DNA of 64,000 bases from Saccharothrix luteola (GTDB lineage: Bacteria > Actinomycetota > Actinomycetes > Mycobacteriales > Pseudonocardiaceae), in contig NZ_JAJHUO010000046.1 in NCBI RefSeq assembly GCF_020859565.1, positions 1 through 64,000 of the forward strand, in the 5' to 3' direction. Position 1 is the stretch's first letter. Every line of letters begins with the position of its first letter. Below, one piece after another: positions 568-17,153 of the stretch. A program made the translations under genes and the position numbers. The notes under the pieces were generated by a model. It worked only from the letters and a program-made list of their open reading frames with translations, was not told where the DNA came from and did not search any database.

Positions 568-1851
568 TCAGAGGAGCACCCGCAGGCCGGCGGTGTTGCG
601 CTTGCCGCGCCGCACGACCAGCCACTCCCCGTGGAGGAGGTCCTCCTTGGTGGGCACCCACTCCTCGTCGGTGACCTTGGAGTTGTTCACGTACGCGCCG
701 CCTTCCTTCACGGTGCGCCGCGCCGCGCCCTTGCTGTCCGCGAGCCCGGAGCTGACCAGCAGGTCGACGATGGTCGGCGCGTCGGCCAGGCGGACCTCGC
801 CGGTCGGCGCCTCGGCCATCGCGGCCACCAGCGTGGACAGGTCGAGCTCGCGCAGCTCGCCCCGGCCGAACAGGGCCTGGCTCGCCGCGATGACCTGCTG
901 CGTCTCGTGCTCGCCGTGCACCAGGTTGGTGAACTCCTCGGCCAGCCTCTTCTGCGCGGCGCGCAGGTGCGGGGCCTCGGCGGTCTGCCGCTCCAGGTCG
1001 GCCATCTCCTCCTGGGACAGGAAGGTGAACAGCCGCAGGTAGCGGAGCACGTCGGCGTCGCCCACGTTCACGAAGTACTGGTACCAGGCGTACGGCGAGG
1101 TCATCTGCGGGTCGAGCCACACGTTGCCGCCGCCGGTGGACTTGCCGAACTTGCGGCCCTCGGCGTCGGTCACCAGCGGCGCGGTCAGCGCGTGCACGGA
1201 CTTGCCGTCGACCTTCCGGACCAGGTCGACGCCGCCGAGGATGTTGCCCCACTGGTCGGAGCCGCCGACCTGCAGCGTGGTGCCGTACCTCCGGTTGAGC
1301 TGGAGGTAGTCGTGCGACTGCAGGAGCAGGTAGCTGAACTCGGTGTAGGACATGCCGTCGCCGTCGAGGCGGCGCTTGACCGTGTCACGGGCGAGCATGA
1401 CGTTGACCGAGAAGTGCTTGCCCACGTCGCGCAGGAAGTCCAGCACGGGCATCCGGCCGGTCCAGTCCAGGTTGTTGGCCACGATCGCGCCGGTCGGGCT
1501 GTCGTCGAACTCCACGAACCGCTCCAGCTGGCCGCGGATGCGCCCGGCCCACTCGGCCACGGTGTCCAGCGGGTTGAGCGCGCGCTCCGCGGTGTCGCGC
1601 GGGTCGCCGATCATCCCGGTGGCGCCTCCGGCGAGGACGATCGGCCGGTGCCCGGCGCGCTGGAAGCGGCGCAGCATGAGCAGCGGGACGAGGTTGCCGG
1701 CGTGCAGGCTGGGCGCGGTCGGGTCGAACCCGCAATAGAGGGTGAGCGGTCCCGCGTCGAGATCCTTCCGCAGCGCGTCGAGGTCGGTGGAGTGCGCGAT
1801 CAGGCCGCGCCAGGACAGCTCATCGAGGATGTGCTCGCTCACGGTTCCCAT
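568..1851 (-). CDS. tyrS: Tyrosyl-tRNA synthetase
   Basis: Class I aminoacyl-tRNA synthetase that charges tRNA-Tyr with tyrosine at the expense of ATP in the cytosol. The 427-aa length is normal for a bacterial TyrS. The HIGH-type signature is HAGN at residues 50-53 and the KMSKS-type loop is KFGKS at 234-238. An S4-like RNA-binding domain forms the C-terminus (about 355-427). The ATG at 1851 lies 38 bp downstream of the DUF554 stop, so tyrS is probably read as the last gene of the P450-NRPS cassette unless it has its own promoter. Codons about 4-17 are duplicated at 6666-6706, which suggests the region upstream of tyrS was replaced by an insertion. Confidence 0.97.
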
Positions 1852-1889: not shown

Positions 1890-2630
1890 TCAGCTCACCG
1901 CGACCGCCAGTGCGGTGAACAGCGGGGCGAACAGCAGCGCGGGAAGCAGGTCCCCGGTCGGGAAGTCCTTGAGCTTGAGCAGGCGCAGCCCCACTCCGGC
2001 CAGGAGCAGGCCGCCGGTGGCGTCGAGCGCGGCGACGTGCGGGTCGGGCAGGACGCCGCCGAGCGCGAACCCGGCGACGGTGAACAACCCCTGCACCACC
2101 AGCACAGACAGGCCCGCGGCGGCCACGCCCCAGCCGAACGAGGCGGCGAACGCGATCGCGGTGAAGAAGTCGAGCATGGACTTCAGGGCGAGCTGGTCGA
2201 TGCCTCGGCCGAGGCCGTCGGACAGCGCGCCGAGCACCGCCAACGGCCCGACCGAGAAGACCAGCGAGGAGGAGACGAAGCCCTCGACGAAGCGGTGATC
2301 GCCGCCGCCGTCGTCGCGGAGGAACCGCTTCTGCAGGCCCCCGCCCAGCCGTTCGAGCCACCGCTCGATGCCGAGCAGGGAGCCGATCACGCCGCCGACG
2401 AGCATGGCCCCGAGCACGACGAGCACCGGGACGCCGCGTCCCATCGCGCCGGACAGCGCGGGGTCGGTCACGCTGACCGCGCTGAGCGCCGCGACCAGGA
2501 GGGTGACCATGCCCAGTCCCTGGGTGATCACCTCCCTGGTCCGCTCCGGGAACCTGTGCCCGACCAGCGACCCGATGGTCGCCCCGGCGAGGATGGCACC
2601 GACGTTGAGCGCCGTGCCGAGCCCGATCAT
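1890..2630 (-). CDS. DUF554 family membrane protein
   Basis: 246-aa polytopic membrane protein of the DUF554 (YdfK/YqgA-like) family. The N-terminus (MIGLGTALNVGAIL) and the GxxxG-rich membrane helices are typical, and the length is complete. Family members are thought to be transporters or channels, but no substrate is established. Its start overlaps the hydrolase stop as ATGA (2627-2630), so the two are translationally coupled. As third gene of the P450-A-PCP cassette it could export or import the cassette's product, though context is the only support for that. DUF554 proteins also occur outside biosynthetic loci. Confidence 0.85.
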   Translation of the reverse strand: MIGLGTALNVGAILAGATIGSLVGHRFPERTREVITQGLGMVTLLVAALSAVSVTDPALSGAMGRGVPVLVVLGAMLVGGVIGSLLGIERWLERLGGGLQKRFLRDDGGGDHRFVEGFVSSSLVFSVGPLAVLGALSDGLGRGIDQLALKSMLDFFTAIAFAASFGWGVAAAGLSVLVVQGLFTVAGFALGGVLPDPHVAALDATGGLLLAGVGLRLLKLKDFPTGDLLPALLFAPLFTALAVAVS

Positions 2631-3391
2631 GTGGAGAGTCCCCCAGAAAGAGTGATCAGTTCCGCGAACGCCGCCGGGTGGGTGACGTGGGCCGCGTGGC
2701 CGGCTCCCGGGATCTCCCGGAAACGCCCGTTCGGCGCCAGCGCGGCCAGGTGCAGCGCCGTCTCGCGGTGGTGCGGCAGCGTATCCGCCGCCGCCCCCGC
2801 GCCGACCACGACCGGCACGTCCAGCGCGATCGGGTCGAACAGGGGCGTGTCGAGGCTGCGGTCACCCATCTCGGTGACGAGTGCGGCCCCGTCCTCCTCC
2901 AGCTGGTGCCGGGGAGTCGCGGGTGGCCGTCCGGTGACGGCGCGGAGCAGTTCCTCGGCGACGGCCGCGGGGCCGTTCGGCTCGGTGTCGCGGACCAGCT
3001 GCTCCCACGGCGCGCTCGGCGGCCACCACGGCAGCCACCGCACGGGCGGTTCGTAGGCCACCACGGCCCGGACCAGCTCGGGTGAGCGGGCCGCGGCGCA
3101 CAGGGCGACGAGCCCGCCGTAGCTGTGCCCGGCGACGACGGACCCCGGTTGTGCCGCCAGGATGGCGGTCAGGTCGTCGACGTGGTCTTCGAGGGTGGTG
3201 GTGGCGTCGCCCAGGGCTCGGGAACCGCCCCAGCCGCGTCGGTCGTAGCCGATGACCGTCCACTCGGACAGGTGCGCGGCGACCTGGCGGAAGCTGGTGT
3301 GCCGGTCGAGTGAGCCGTGCACGAGGACGACCTTGTCCGGTCCGCCCGCGCGTTTGACGATCGTGGGTCGGCGTCCGGTTCGCGTGGTCAT
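2627..3391 (-). CDS. Alpha/beta hydrolase (type II thioesterase-like)
   Basis: 254-aa alpha/beta-hydrolase. It shows the oxyanion HGS motif near residue 26, a nucleophile elbow GHSYGG, and a late catalytic His in GAGHAAH. The ATG at 3391 overlaps the stop of the P450-A-PCP gene as ATGA, so stoichiometric co-expression is likely. That upstream megaprotein has a carrier domain but no thioesterase. By analogy with NikP2 in nikkomycin biosynthesis, this enzyme may release the aminoacyl product from the carrier or clear misloaded thioesters. It could also be a general esterase. There is no signal peptide. Confidence 0.8.
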   Translation of the reverse strand: MTTRTGRRPTIVKRAGGPDKVVLVHGSLDRHTSFRQVAAHLSEWTVIGYDRRGWGGSRALGDATTTLEDHVDDLTAILAAQPGSVVAGHSYGGLVALCAAARSPELVRAVVAYEPPVRWLPWWPPSAPWEQLVRDTEPNGPAAVAEELLRAVTGRPPATPRHQLEEDGAALVTEMGDRSLDTPLFDPIALDVPVVVGAGAAADTLPHHRETALHLAALAPNGRFREIPGAGHAAHVTHPAAFAELITLSGGLST

Positions 3392-6300
3392 GCCGTCGCC
3401 AGGATCCGGTCGGAGATGCGCGCGGGGGTGGGGTCGGCCAGCAGCTGCTCGACGTCGAGCACGTGGTCGACCTCCTGCTCGATCTTGGTCAGCAGGGTCG
3501 CGACGGCGAGCGAGTCGCCGCCCAGGGCGAAGAAGTCGGAATCGGCCTTGACCTCGGCCTGGCGGATGCCGACGCAGGTCGCGAAGAACTGGGCGATGCG
3601 CCACGTGAGCCGGGCGCGCCTGCGGTCGGGCTCCGGTGCGGTTCCCAGCGTCGGCACGGGTGGCGGTGCGGACGTCCGTGCGGGTTCCGGTGTCGGTGCG
3701 GGGAGCGCCGCGACGGGCTCCGGGGTTGGGCTTGCGGGCTGTGGCCTTGCGGGCTCGGTGGGCGTTCCGGTCCGGTCGGCCTTGCCGGTGATGCTCCTGG
3801 GCAGCTCGGCGACGACGGTGAGCGTCGCCGGGACCATGCCGCTGTGCAGGTGCATCCGGAGGTGCTTCCACACGACCGTCTCGTCGAGGTCGCCAACCAC
3901 CTGCGCTTCCAGCCGCCCGGCGCGCTCGGACACCACGGCGGCCTCCACGCCCGGTGAGGCCTCCAGCACCCGTTCGACCTCGTCCAGCTCGACCCGCTGG
4001 CCGCGGATCTTGACCTGGCGGTCGCGCCGGCCGAGGTACTCGATCGAGCCGTCCGGCAGCCACCGCGCCCGGTCGCCGGTGCGGTAGAGCAGCCTGCCGG
4101 GCTCGGCGGCGAACGGGTCCAGCCGGAACCGCTCGCGCATCAGCTCGTCGCGGCCCAGGTAGCGGCCGACGCCGAGACCGCCGACGCACAGCTCGCCCGG
4201 CTCGCCGACCGGCACCGGGCGCAGGTCGGCGTCCAGCACGTAGACCTGCTTGTTGGCGACCGGCCGGCCGATCGTCGGCGTGGTGCCGGTGTCGGTGCAC
4301 TCGTGCCAGGTGGCCATCACCGCGGTCTCGGCCGGGCCGTAGAGGTTGAGGAACCGCCGTCCGGGCACGAGCCAGCGGGCGAGCACCGCGGTGGTGAGCC
4401 GCTCACCGGCCGCCGCGGCGACCCGCAGGTCCGGCAGCGGGCCGTCCGGCAGCGCGAGCCACACCGACGGGGTGAGGATGACGGCGGTGACCCTCCGCTG
4501 CGCGAGCAGGCGCACCAGGGGCGGGCCGACGACGAGTCGCGCGGTCGGCGCGACGACGAGGGTGGCGCCGTTGAGCAGCGCGAGGACCAGGTCGGCGAAG
4601 CAGCCGTCGAAGTTCGGCGACAGGAATTGCAGCACGCGGTCGGTCGGTGCGAGCCGGAAGATGCGGCGCTGCCCGATGTGCAGGTTCACCGCGCCCTCGT
4701 GGCTGATCGCGATCGCCTTGGGCCGCCCGGTCGTGCCGCTGGTGAACACCACGTAGGCCGTGTTGCCCGAGGTGACGCCGGTGATCGGCGGGTCGTCGCG
4801 CTCGGCGGAGGTGTCGACCTCGGTCAGCACGACGCGCGCGCCGGACTGCTCGACCATGGCGCGCAGCCGTTCCGGCGGGCACGTGGGTTCGGCCAGCATG
4901 AACGCGCCGCCCGCCTTGGCGACGGCGAGCACGGAGATGACGAAGTCGACCGTGCGCTCCATGACGACGCCGACCACGGACTCGGGCTGCACGCCCCGTG
5001 CGCGCAGGTCGTGCGCGAGCGCGTTGGCCCGCCGGTCGATCTCGCCGTAGGTGTGCTCGCGGCCCTGGTCGTCCACCGCGACGGAGTCCGGCGCGAGCCG
5101 GGCGCGGTGCTCGAAGACCTGGTGCCAGCCCGCGTGCGGGCCCAGCGGGGCGGAGTGGTCGTTGAACTCGACGGTCACCCGGTGGCGTTCGACGTCGGAG
5201 AGGGCGGGCGGCGCGGTCCGCACCTCGACGGGGGCGTGCGCCGGGCAGCGGGTGTTCGCGTGGTGGCCCCACCGCACCTCGCCCGCCGGCCGGTAGTGCG
5301 GGTACCGGTCGAGGAAGCCGCGGATGGCCCACCCGCCGAGCCGTTCCGCGTACGGCGCGCCGACGCAGTAGTGGCGGCCCATGCCGAAGCCGAGGTGGCG
5401 CGTCCCGTTGCGCCGGATGTCGAGGTCGCGCGGGTGGTCGAAGACGCGCGGGTCGAGGTTGGCCGCGGCGAGGTGGACCAGGACCGTCTGCCCGGCCCGG
5501 ATCGTGGCGCCGCCCAGGTCGACGTCCTCGACGGCGAGGCGGGCCAGGTACTGGCTCGACCCGTTGCGCCGCATGAACTCGTCCACCGCCGACTCGATCA
5601 GCTCCGGCTCCTCGCGCAGGGCGCGCAGCTGGTCCGGGTGGTCGTGCAGCTGGAGCAGGCCGGTGGTCACCAGGTGGGTGAGGGTCTGGTAGCCGCCCCC
5701 GACCAGCACGATGCAGTTCGCGGCCACCGAGAACAGCTCCTCGTCGGTGCCGTCGATGCCGTCGACCAGCGCGGAGACCAGGTCGTCGCCGGGGTCGGCC
5801 ATGCGGCGGCGGGCTTGGTCGCGGAAGCCGGCGACGGCCTCGTCCAGCACGGCGACCACTTCCCGGTCGCGGACGTCGGGGAGGCTGGACAGGCTGCCGA
5901 GCAGCCGTTCGTAGGCGTCCGCCCACCGGGTCAGCAGTTCCTCGTCGCCTTCCATGCCCAGCAGGTGCGCCACGAGCTTGGCGGGCAGCTTCGCGGCGTA
6001 GTCCCCGACCAGGTCGAGCACGCCCTCCTCGGGCAGATCCGCGAGCGCCTCGTCCACCATTCGACGCATGACGTCGTCACGTGCCCGGATTTGGGCCTTC
6101 GTGAATTGGTCCCGAATGCGCGCGCGAATTGCGGCGTGCTCCGGCGGGTCCATGAAGAGCATTTGTTCGGAGACGATGCCGGCGGCGCTGGAAGCGGCGT
6201 CCAGGCCTCGTTCGTCGAGTGCCGATGCCTTGCGCGTGCGGGCCGAGGAGAACCGCCGGTGGTCGGTGAGGACGCGGGCCGCCTCGGCGTAGCCCGTGCA

Positions 6301-6450
6301 CACCCACACGCCGCCTACCTGGTCGTAGAACAGCGGACCGAGCTCGGTGACGGCGTCGATGTAGATCAACGGGTCGGCCACCACTGCGGCACGGCCGAGG
6401 TTGTGCGTGCCATGGCGCGCACGGTCGTACCCGGATGGGTTGGACAACAT
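3388..6450 (-). CDS. Cytochrome P450 - NRPS adenylation - carrier protein fusion
   Basis: 1,020-aa single polypeptide with three units. Residues about 1-410 are a bacterial P450: ExxR is EFMR (291-294), the heme loop is FGMGRHYCVG with Cys362, and the I-helix reads GGGYQT, where the usual acid before Thr is Gln. Residues about 440-890 are an NRPS adenylation domain, with A3 VFTSGTTGRPKA (568-579), LYGPAET (703-709), YRTGD and the A10 Lys890. A Pro/Ala/Thr-rich linker (893-940) leads to a carrier domain with the phosphopantetheine site FFALGGDS (Ser980). There is no condensation or thioesterase domain. Likely role: activate one amino acid, tether it and oxidise it in cis. The ATG at 6450 is preceded by a GGGGGG Shine-Dalgarno. 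The substrate is not predictable, although Asp615 in the FDG motif fits an alpha-amino acid. Confidence 0.9.
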   Translation of the reverse strand: MLSNPSGYDRARHGTHNLGRAAVVADPLIYIDAVTELGPLFYDQVGGVWVCTGYAEAARVLTDHRRFSSARTRKASALDERGLDAASSAAGIVSEQMLFMDPPEHAAIRARIRDQFTKAQIRARDDVMRRMVDEALADLPEEGVLDLVGDYAAKLPAKLVAHLLGMEGDEELLTRWADAYERLLGSLSSLPDVRDREVVAVLDEAVAGFRDQARRRMADPGDDLVSALVDGIDGTDEELFSVAANCIVLVGGGYQTLTHLVTTGLLQLHDHPDQLRALREEPELIESAVDEFMRRNGSSQYLARLAVEDVDLGGATIRAGQTVLVHLAAANLDPRVFDHPRDLDIRRNGTRHLGFGMGRHYCVGAPYAERLGGWAIRGFLDRYPHYRPAGEVRWGHHANTRCPAHAPVEVRTAPPALSDVERHRVTVEFNDHSAPLGPHAGWHQVFEHRARLAPDSVAVDDQGREHTYGEIDRRANALAHDLRARGVQPESVVGVVMERTVDFVISVLAVAKAGGAFMLAEPTCPPERLRAMVEQSGARVVLTEVDTSAERDDPPITGVTSGNTAYVVFTSGTTGRPKAIAISHEGAVNLHIGQRRIFRLAPTDRVLQFLSPNFDGCFADLVLALLNGATLVVAPTARLVVGPPLVRLLAQRRVTAVILTPSVWLALPDGPLPDLRVAAAAGERLTTAVLARWLVPGRRFLNLYGPAETAVMATWHECTDTGTTPTIGRPVANKQVYVLDADLRPVPVGEPGELCVGGLGVGRYLGRDELMRERFRLDPFAAEPGRLLYRTGDRARWLPDGSIEYLGRRDRQVKIRGQRVELDEVERVLEASPGVEAAVVSERAGRLEAQVVGDLDETVVWKHLRMHLHSGMVPATLTVVAELPRSITGKADRTGTPTEPARPQPASPTPEPVAALPAPTPEPARTSAPPPVPTLGTAPEPDRRRARLTWRIAQFFATCVGIRQAEVKADSDFFALGGDSLAVATLLTKIEQEVDHVLDVEQLLADPTPARISDRILATA

Positions 6451-6516: not shown

Positions 6517-6540
6517 CCCCTCGGTTAACACCCCGCGGCG

Positions 6541-6570: not shown

Positions 6571-6704
6571 GACAGGATCAGCAGGGGTGTATCAATCAGC
6601 GGGACGGACGAACTGCGAACTGCACTTATTCCACGGCGGTGGGAAATGGAACAACTCTTTCGGACGCCGCGCCGGGACAGCTCGTCGAGGATGTGCTCGC
6701 TCAC
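6570..6704 (-). pseudogene. tyrS 5'-end remnant
   Basis: Positions 6666-6706 match the start of intact tyrS (1804-1844) at 39 of 41 bases, in the same orientation. The frame from GTG (6704) reads [10 protein letters not shown] like TyrS, then diverges after about 14 codons and stops near 6570. The two differences are a synonymous GAT/GAC and a Trp-to-Arg change. This is a decayed fragment of a tyrS copy or the scar of a recombination or insertion event. It is not a functional synthetase. The rest of 6451-6799 holds the cassette promoter and leader. Confidence 0.75.
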
Positions 6705-6799
6705 GGGCAGCCATTCCCCCGCTGCCTGGTCACCTCAGTTTGAGGCGGTGCCGCCGGTGGGTAGTCGACCCGAGGGCTCTACTGAGAGGACCACGGCTG

Positions 6800-8453: not shown

Positions 8454-10470
<2,017 letters not shown>

Positions 10471-11398
10471 CTACGTCGCGGCGATCTTGTCCGGCAGGTT
10501 CCGCGATCTTCCCGAGCCCACGGCGAAGTCGGACAGCGACTCCTCGCCGCGCCGGCCGGTGACGACCGCGCGGCCACCGTGCAGCACGAGCCGGACCTCG
10601 CCGGACACGTGCCGCTGGGTGGTGTCGATGAAGCTGTCCAACGCCTGCTTGAGCGGGGAGAACCACAGACCTTCGTGCACCAGTGCACCCCAGCGCCGCT
10701 CGACCTGCCGCTTGAAGCGGAGCAGGTCGGGCTCCAGGGTGACGTCCTCCAGCTGTTGGTGAGCGGTGGTCAACGCGCTCGCGCCCGGCGTCTCGTAGGC
10801 CCGGACGCCGGTGAGGCGGCCGACCCCCGAGACGCCCGCCCTCCGGTTCAGCTCCCGGACGGCTTGCGGCATGGTCACGGTCTCGCCGTCGATGGCGACC
10901 GGCGTGCCCCGGTCGAACGCGAGCACGAGCTCCTCGGGGTCGCCCGGCTCGATCCGGCCCACCGGGCGGTCCTCCGCCGGGGCGTCGGCCGTTGCGACGG
11001 CGACGACCGCGAGGTCGGGCGCCAGGGCGGCGACACCGGCCTCGAAGCGGATCCGGTCGGCGCCGGCGCGGTCGTGCGCCACGGTCGTCGCGCCGTGCCG
11101 GCGGGCGGCCTCGACCACGTGCCCGGCGACGAGCGGCGCGACCAGCGCCGAGGCCGGGTGCAGGGCGTTGGCGCGCAGCGCGGGCAGGCAGTACTGGTCG
11201 GCGAACTCGTCGCGGGCGTCGGCGACCACGGCCTCGACCGCGCCGCAGTCCAGCGCCCGGCGGCGGGTGGTCTCCAGGTCGTCCCCGCCCCGGCCGAGGT
11301 CGACCACGACCGCGACGACCTCGGCGCCGGTCTCCTCGGCGAGCCGGCCGATGGCGACCGGGGCGTCGAACCCGCCGGAGTACGCGAGGACGACCCGC

Positions 11399-11406
<8 letters not shown>
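10471..11406 (-). CDS. Shortened argininosuccinate-synthase-like protein, probably not catalytic
   Basis: 311 aa, against about 400 for ArgG. The N-terminal fold, the central ELNRRAGxxGVGR and the C-terminal tetramerisation region (FKRQVERRW...[19 protein letters not shown]) are clearly ArgG. However, the ATP loop SGGLDTS is SGGFDAP (10-16), the CTGKGNDQ substrate loop is replaced by DRAGADR (112-118), the roughly 45-residue segment with SIDQNxWGR is absent near residue 145, and the C-terminal NLATYDxGDxFDQ stretch is missing. The frame is uninterrupted and the ATG overlaps the argR stop by 8 bp, so it is still expressed. It is either decaying or repurposed as a structural or regulatory paralogue. 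A true argG should exist elsewhere. Confidence 0.85.
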
Positions 11407-14011
<2,605 letters not shown>

Positions 14012-14015
<4 letters not shown>

Positions 14016-14895
14016 GCCTCGCCCGCCCCAGTCCGTTCGGTCACCATCGTTCCGACGCCCTCGGAGGTGAAGACCTCCAACAACACCGAGTGCGCCAGCC
14101 TGCCGTCGATCACGTGCGCCTCGGGGACGCCGCCGCGCACCGCGCGCAGGCAGGCCTCCATCTTCGGCACCATGCCGCTGTCCAGGTCCGGCAGCATCTT
14201 CTCCAGCCGCTCGGCGTCCACCCGGTGCAGCAGCGAGCTCTTGTCCGGCCAGTCCGCGTACAGGCCCTCGACGTCGGTGAGCACGACCAGCTTCTCGGCC
14301 TTCAGCGCCACGGCCACCGCGCCCGCCGCCGTGTCGGCGTTGACGTTGTGCACCACGCCGTCGGCGTCCGGTGCGACCGTGGACACGACCGGGATGCGGC
14401 CCGCGCGCACGATGTCGAGCACCGCGTCCGGGTTGACGTCCACGATGTCGCCGACCAGGCCGATGTCGACCGGCGCGCCGTCCACGATGGCCGGTCGCCG
14501 GGCGGCGGTCAGCAGGTGGGCGTCCTCGCCGGACAGGCCGACCGCGAGCGGGCCGTGGGAGTTGATCAGGCCGACCAGCTCGCGCTGCACCTGGCCGACC
14601 AGCACCATCCGGACCACGTCCATGGCCTCGGGCGTGGTGACGCGCAGGCCCCCGCGGAACTCGCTGTCGATGCCGAGCCGCTTGAGCATCGCGGCGATCT
14701 GCGGCCCGCCGCCGTGCACCACGACCGGGTGCAGGCCCGCGAGCTTGAGGAACACCATGTCCTGCGCGAACGCGCGCTTCAGCTCGTCGTCCACCATGGC
14801 GTTGCCGCCGTACTTGACGACCACGATCGCGCCGCGGAAGCGCTGCAACCACGGCAGCGCCTCGATCAGGATCCCGGCCTTGGCCTGTGGCGTGA

Positions 14896-14899
<4 letters not shown>
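14012..14899 (-). CDS. argB: Acetylglutamate kinase
   Basis: 295-aa amino-acid kinase that phosphorylates N-acetylglutamate. It has the ATP-binding KYGGNAM near the N-terminus, VVHGGGPQI, and the C-terminal [14 protein letters not shown] that carries a conserved Lys. The long N-terminal helix ([16 protein letters not shown]) is typical of arginine-inhibited hexameric enzymes, so feedback inhibition is likely. The ATG at 14899 overlaps the argJ stop as ATGA. Confidence 0.97.

Positions 14900-17153
<2,254 letters not shown>

Follow-up and report, generated by a model that had tools for sequence, protein, structure and literature searches.

The window analysed here, 64,000 nucleotides of high-GC DNA from one contig (NZ_JAJHUO010000046.1) of Saccharothrix luteola, carries a gene in which a cytochrome P450, an adenylation (A) domain and a peptidyl carrier protein (PCP) are fused in one chain. 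By its sequence this fusion is a homologue of BsmF of the bosamycin pathway lying outside a bosamycin cluster, and it is followed immediately by a gene for an alpha/beta hydrolase homologous to BsmG. The enzyme is probably (with a likelihood of roughly two in three) a tyrosine ring hydroxylase acting on its own carrier, from which the coupled hydrolase would free L-3-hydroxytyrosine (L-DOPA). We infer the substrate, the position of hydroxylation, the role of the hydrolase and the fate of the product from the domains, the key residues, the homology and the gene order shared with bosamycin-type BsmF-BsmG pairs.

In the proposed mechanism the A domain would adenylate L-tyrosine and load it onto the phosphopantetheine that Ser980 carries in the C-terminal PCP, which would present Tyr-S-PCP to the N-terminal P450. 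Hydroxylation at ring carbon 3 (the same as carbon 5) would give 3,4-dihydroxyphenylalanyl-S-PCP, and the translationally coupled hydrolase would cleave this thioester to give the free amino acid. The original prediction, made from the letters of the window, had proposed a self-contained machine for one oxidised amino acid; the protein probably does load and oxidise on its own carrier, but release would probably fall to the adjoining hydrolase. An enzyme that loads and oxidises, accompanied by its own release enzyme, would be a convenient module for the production of L-DOPA or 3-methoxytyrosine.

The fusion protein and its relatives

The gene is a single open frame without internal stops, running from an ATG at 6450 to a stop at 3390-3388, and its third-position GC is 0.93 (frame counted from an alternative in-frame GTG upstream at 6531). 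A ribosome-binding-like GGGGGGAA stands directly upstream of the ATG, and the start residue matches this ATG in all three homologues that could be aligned there. Pfam recognised only p450, AMP-binding and PP-binding in the protein and found neither a condensation nor a thioesterase domain, which agrees with the 1,020-residue chain described originally, for which no strand had been stated. The adenylation domain model TIGR01733 of NCBIfam scored 375.5 bits (cut-off 317.4), and residues 26-394 of the P450 half align with the solved P450 3ejb. The heme ligand Cys362 (within GMGRHYCVG) and the phosphopantetheine site Ser980 (within LGGDS) were located where they had been predicted, and the ExxR motif lies at 291. 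An AlphaFold model of the whole fusion, built with 8 sequences, was too poor (mean predicted local distance difference 57.1, predicted template modelling score 0.39) and was not used.

Ten fusion loci were read: that of S. luteola, those of Streptomyces sp. AA1529 (L011), S. diastatochromogenes NRRL B-1698 (L012) and Actinomadura rubrisoli (L013), and those of the genomes G098, G642, G141, G145, G1597 and G1504. The nine further homologues are all fused in frame and are 54.6-59.1% identical to the S. luteola protein. In the first eight fusions examined, identity to the latter was 56-63% in the P450 and A regions, 36-50% in the PCP and 10-38% in the linkers. Asp235 and Lys517 of the A domain and the GGDS of the carrier are present in all ten.

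A scan of genome contigs yielded the three full-length fused relatives L011, L012 and L013 (53-55% identity in the best segment). Moreover, a degenerate pattern for the I-helix motif VLVGGGYQTL was scanned in four overlapping genome sets and matched 4/390, 2/394, 1/394 and 2/341 genomes. These are seven distinct genomes out of 1,437, namely that of S. luteola, G098, G141, G145, G642, G1014 and G1371, the last two being identical with the loci of AA1529 and A. rubrisoli (exact 200-bp matches). Within the 390-genome set, the motif was absent from the 24 other genomes of the genus of S. luteola. When the AA1529 fusion was used as a protein query against 229 genomes of its genus (E<=1e-130), three matches were obtained, G1014, G1597 and G1504. 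The last two have the motif LVAGGYQT and escape the pattern, so the pattern counts are lower bounds; as the genome sets were picked by kinship, they yield no overall rate of occurrence. In a tblastn search of plasmids 2,529 records matched, 24 of them with a single place covering >=80% of the query. Among the 15 of these that were listed, nine (H1, H3, H5, H6, H8, H11, H13, H14 and H15) annotate the P450 and the non-ribosomal peptide synthetase (NRPS) or AMP-binding protein separately and the remaining six carry no annotation; in one of these six, H9, the P450 and the A-PCP were read in different frames. A fused gene may thus still occur among plasmids.

Comparison with the bosamycin system

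The clusters for bosamycin and depsibosamycin are described in PMC8303602 as containing an 'NRPS (P450-A-PCP)' (bsmF/dbmF), an alpha/beta hydrolase (bsmG/dbmG) and an O-methyltransferase (bsmH/dbmH), with an MbtH gene (bsmE) and a dioxygenase gene (bsmC) also in the bosamycin cluster. The same account gives the peptide as Tyr-Tyr-Leu-(OH-Asp)-Ser-(5-MeO-Tyr)-Leu-Gly and attributes its 5-OH tyrosine to the stand-alone NRPS with a P450 domain (PMC8303602). The fused architecture, which the original prediction had implied to be new, is thus already published, and the S. luteola gene adds one more member.

A bosamycin-type cluster was found in the Streptomyces genome G1597. In the presumed assembly order, with the first two modules on the opposite strand, the A domains of modules 1-5 have the codes DASTIAAVCK, DASTIAAVCK, DAWMVGAVCK, DLTPLGVVNK and DVWHFSLVDK, and they are followed by a TauD-family open reading frame (ORF) and then by the codes DASTIGAVCK, DAWMVGAVCK and DILQLGVI-K. 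By the usual meaning of such codes, we take these modules to be specific for Tyr, Tyr, Leu, an Asp-like residue, Ser, Tyr, Leu and Gly, which is the order of bosamycin. Because the module codes of the cluster follow this order, the G1597 fusion is very probably BsmF. Two of the G1597 A domains are split between frames (L045/L046; G1597:C1:402265-403742 and 416747-418196), through a sequencing error or as a real split.

After the NRPS genes of G1597 come an MbtH gene, the P450-A-PCP gene, a hydrolase gene and a methyltransferase gene; in G1504 the fusion likewise follows an NRPS, in which a thioesterase domain was confirmed, and an MbtH gene, and precedes a hydrolase and a methyltransferase. 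The S. luteola pair resembles BsmF/BsmG in having P450, A and PCP in one chain without condensation or thioesterase domains and the hydrolase immediately downstream, but differs from the bosamycin clusters in that no NRPS assembly line, MbtH gene or O-methyltransferase gene adjoins it. Its hydrolase shares 48-49% identity with the hydrolases of the two bosamycin-type loci and 51-55% with five hydrolases of lyase cassettes, which are discussed below. The range of loci in which such fusions lie, including those described below, suggests that a fused tyrosine hydroxylase of this type can exist independently of the bosamycin assembly line.

Predicted substrate and reaction

The homology with the bosamycin BsmF, together with a similar A-domain code, makes free 3-hydroxytyrosine, and not a beta-hydroxy amino acid, the most likely product. 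Outside the bosamycin system a comparison can be made with the nikkomycin proteins NikP1/NikQ/NikP2 and with NovH/NovI of novobiocin, in which the substrate of the P450 is likewise an amino acid bound to an A-PCP protein, but as separate proteins and by beta-hydroxylation, whereas the S. luteola functions are fused. The nikkomycin system has moreover a free-standing release enzyme, so that fusion and hydrolase together offer the same functions. NikQ beta-hydroxylates PCP-bound histidine (PMC3943440), and the P450 described here might likewise attack the beta position of what its carrier holds, in the manner of NikQ, NovI or OxyD, the hydrolase then freeing a beta-hydroxy amino acid. We consider this unlikely, although the original prediction had implied it, since a ring-hydroxylated tyrosine is the product attributed to the nearest characterised system (PMC8303602) and since the tyrosine phenol-lyase reaction of the five related cassettes would be expected to discard a beta-hydroxyl. 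It is a weaker point that none of the best 60 of 401 PDB matches to the P450 profile, headed by P450 BioI with its acyl carrier protein, is named as a beta-hydroxylase of carrier-bound amino acids, many of the names being generic. In favour of ring position 3 there is also the hint that the lyases of five relatives are altered at sites lining the pocket for ortho substituents.

The A domain could instead be specific for Phe, Trp or a modified tyrosine, the product then not being 3-hydroxytyrosine. The specificity positions were obtained from an alignment anchored by eye on GrsA-type motifs, with the numbering that we take to be that of GrsA. The resulting code, DGAIAALVMK, is the one that had been read by eye from the sequence; it is unlike the tyrosine-type DASTIAAVCK/DASTIGAVCK of the bosamycin-type assembly line, and position 331 varies between the groups of fusions (M, L, W). 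The codes of the two BsmF homologues, DGSIAALIWK in G1597 and DGSIAALVWK in G1504, are nevertheless equally unusual, and the gene is credited with hydroxytyrosine (PMC8303602), which makes a different substrate improbable. The S. luteola code agrees with these two at 7/10 and 8/10 positions; the code for which no match had been named originally thus differs from theirs at two or three positions. The five lyase-cassette fusions all have DGAIAALVLK.

In the I-helix (residues 251-256, GGGYQT) Gln255 replaces the acid that usually, but not universally, precedes the threonine of P450s, as had been noted originally, while Thr256 is present. Since the Gln is found in 10/10 fusions it is a trait of the family and not damage. 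Such constancy might also mean that the P450 is no normal monooxygenase, performing another oxidation or being inactive; this is very unlikely, as the threonine and the heme cysteine are kept in 10/10 fusions (as is the serine of the carrier) and ExxR in the eight looked at, and both bosamycin-type homologues have the same Gln. An error of sequencing or assembly joining two genes, for which no support was found although the assembly lists 8.84% contamination, is refuted by the nine other in-frame fusions.

Several points weigh against a tyrosine hydroxylase of the BsmF type. The comparison with BsmF runs through the G1597 and G1504 homologues and not through the published sequence MN509472, and the S. 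luteola protein is only 55.0% and 54.6% identical to them over the full length, with differences in the code at positions 239 and 331 (and at 330 in one). An unrooted tree joins it with the lyase-cassette proteins and the bosamycin-type fusions with those of G141 and G145, with support of 83/89, which is below the threshold of the tool itself. The G141 and G145 homologues have the code DGFNMALVWK and no adjoining hydrolase, so function may vary across the family. Furthermore, no tyrosine phenol-lyase was found in the S. luteola genome (AA1529 lyase as query, E<=0.001; the sole match is tryptophanase-like), nor any match to a BsmH-like methyltransferase (A. rubrisoli MT2 as query, E<=1e-25). 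Because neither is seen, the S. luteola pair probably ends at free 3-hydroxytyrosine, which some step elsewhere would then use.

The tryptophanase-like homologue (contig C23, L034:9272-11740, minus strand, 45% identity) has Leu at the site of Arg381 and was set aside as unrelated. A lyase-methyltransferase fusion guessed there from an 836-residue open frame was dropped, the lyase itself having 455 residues. This gene adjoins a Trp_DMAT prenyltransferase gene, and the arrangement resembles the IptA/tryptophanase clusters presented in PMC3617294.

The tyrosine phenol-lyase cassette

In five relatives (L011, L012, L013, G098 and G642) the fusion and hydrolase genes lie in a cassette with the order tyrosine phenol-lyase, methyltransferase MT1, P450-A-PCP, hydrolase and methyltransferase MT2 (Pfam was run on the L011 set). 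The fusions of these cassettes are 49.6-51.2% identical to that of G1597. A transposase-family ORF (Transposase_mut or DDE_Tnp_4) lies <=0.8 kb from the cassette in all five, and in G098 the lyase and MT1 form one frame of 859 residues (L018:10822-13401, minus strand). MT2 is considered BsmH-like because its identity to the methyltransferases of the two bosamycin-type loci is 56-58% and it has their motif ILSDW, with Ser where MT1 has His; MT1, compared for AA1529 only, is 30-31% identical to them.

The best match of the AA1529 lyase is a tyrosine phenol-lyase at 571 bits, the best tryptophanase scoring 466. The hallmarks of tyrosine phenol-lyases, Tyr71, Arg381 and Phe448/Phe449, are kept in the five cassette lyases and in the two halogenase-linked lyases described below, whereas Arg381 is lost in all three tryptophanase-like proteins; Thr124 is kept in the five cassette lyases. 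Three ordinary lyases carry F, M and M at sites 36, 288 and 379, where the cassette lyases uniformly have G, L and T (F36G, M288L and M379T). The halogenase-linked pair has C, L and V, and the tryptophanase-like proteins have F and F, with V, V or A at site 379. Phe36 is thus changed in 7/7 cluster lyases and kept in 6/6 controls, three ordinary and three tryptophanase-like; two of these controls (L038 and L039) were first taken for lyases but turned out to be tryptophanase-like. In the engineering work of PMC4583198 Phe36, Met288, Met379 and Phe448 of a tyrosine phenol-lyase were randomised, and Met379Val is reported there to convert 2-methoxyphenol to 3-methoxytyrosine, a reaction not obtained with the wild type. 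Altered at sites randomised in that work to enlarge the pocket, the cassette lyases seem suited to tyrosines that bear a substituent at C3, such as the BsmF/BsmG/BsmH chemistry would give. If so, they would be natural lyases with an altered pocket of a kind otherwise built by engineers.

We tentatively propose that the related fusions belong to a compact, apparently mobile cassette converting tyrosine to an ortho-substituted phenol, that a parallel locus gives a chlorophenol and that the S. luteola operon is the first half of such a pathway; this extension seems possible, if somewhat doubtful. Tyrosine would be tethered, hydroxylated at C3, released and O-methylated by the BsmH homologue, after which the altered tyrosine phenol-lyase would remove the side chain. 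The product could be guaiacol, or a dimethoxybenzene-type volatile after the second methyltransferase, the order of methylation and lysis being a guess. Some points weaken the argument from the lyases. The lyase model TIGR02618 was the best-scoring one for the two of seven lyases scanned, but its scores (679.1 bits for L011 and 660.9 for L033) are both under the cut-off of 720.7; Thr124 is Pro in the halogenase-linked pair; and site 379 proves nothing alone, because the tryptophanase-like proteins also have small residues there.

The sequence of tethering, decoration, release and lysis would perhaps be an undescribed route to small phenols. In the open-access literature searched, a tyrosine phenol-lyase gene cluster with P450 and adenylation genes gave no match and one with a halogenase gave a single review, no other search aimed at the cassette having been made. 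Modifying the amino acid as the first step has a precedent in the prenyltransferase-plus-tryptophanase cluster of PMC3617294. The IptA-type clusters described there are alike in this and in having a lyase of the tyrosine phenol-lyase/tryptophanase family, but use tryptophan and prenylation with no carrier protein (PMC3617294). Should guaiacol or similar volatiles be its products, the cassette would be a new route from tyrosine; it looks like a new use of a BsmF-type fusion, predicted to give scented small phenols, and this use is absent from the literature searched.

Other contexts of the fusion

The fusion-hydrolase pair occurs alone in S. luteola and within the lyase cassette, and the fusion is also found near KASIII and ATP-grasp-type genes. 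The latter is the case in G141 and G145, which belong to one genus (loci L019 and L020), where its neighbours encode KASIII, an acyl-CoA dehydrogenase, an FlK-type thioesterase, a pre-ATP-grasp protein and a class-III aminotransferase, with a carrier protein and transporters recognised by eye.

These two genomes have a second locus with a halogenase (Table 1), for which Pfam was run on the A-PCP, thioesterase and lyase of G145 and on the halogenase of G141. The G141 halogenase has 3e1t as its best solved match (515 bits), which is CndH, classed in PMC8407142 with the (variant B) halogenases of carrier-tethered substrates and possibly acting on a decarboxylated tyrosine analogue. CndH-type enzymes resemble the fusion in modifying a tethered aromatic substrate, but they are flavin enzymes that chlorinate it and are not part of the A-PCP protein, where the fusion has its own P450 (PMC8407142). 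The second locus is predicted from its genes to yield a chlorophenol by the same logic of tethering, modification, release and lysis, with chlorine for oxygen.

Neighbouring genes and genome

Table 1. Positions of the fusion gene, its neighbours in the window and related loci (locus names precede positions outside the window)
Feature	Position	Strand	Remarks
P450-A-PCP fusion, BsmF homologue	3388..6450	minus	1,020 residues; P450 ~1-408, A ~441-905, PCP ~948-1020
I-helix motif coding VLVGGGYQTL	5681..5709	minus	Gln255 before Thr256; motif scan, alignment
Alpha/beta hydrolase, BsmG homologue	2627..3391	minus	254 residues; GHSYG nucleophile elbow; ATGA overlap with fusion gene
DUF554 gene	1890..2630	minus	ATGA overlap with hydrolase gene
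tyrS, tyrosyl-tRNA synthetase	568..1851	minus	downstream, co-directional
41-bp copy of tyrS 5' end	6666..6706 (vs 1804-1844)	both minus	39/41 identical; upstream of fusion gene
Five-gene cassette	L011:7340-14919
Five-gene cassette	L012:2932-10483
Five-gene cassette	L013:7302-15014
Five-gene cassette	L018:5824-13401		G098
Five-gene cassette	L022:6491-14136		G642
Second locus in G141/G145	L032 ~9126-15619; L033 ~9191-15711		A-PCP, CndH-like halogenase, thioesterase, antiporter-like gene, tyrosine phenol-lyase (Cys36, Val379)

The S. luteola genome comprises 10.3 Mb in 59 contigs. Its contigs C8 and C26 gave two pairs of matches with identical scores, and part of the assembly, with its listed contamination, may be duplicated there. 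Among the ORFs read up to ~16 kb of the window, genes of arginine biosynthesis and further core genes were recognised by eye, and tyrS is probably also a core gene outside the pathway. The copy of the 5' end of tyrS ends ~215 bp before the start of the fusion gene; it is possibly an insertion scar, which would place the insertion of the genes at tyrS, or a captured tyrS promoter region.

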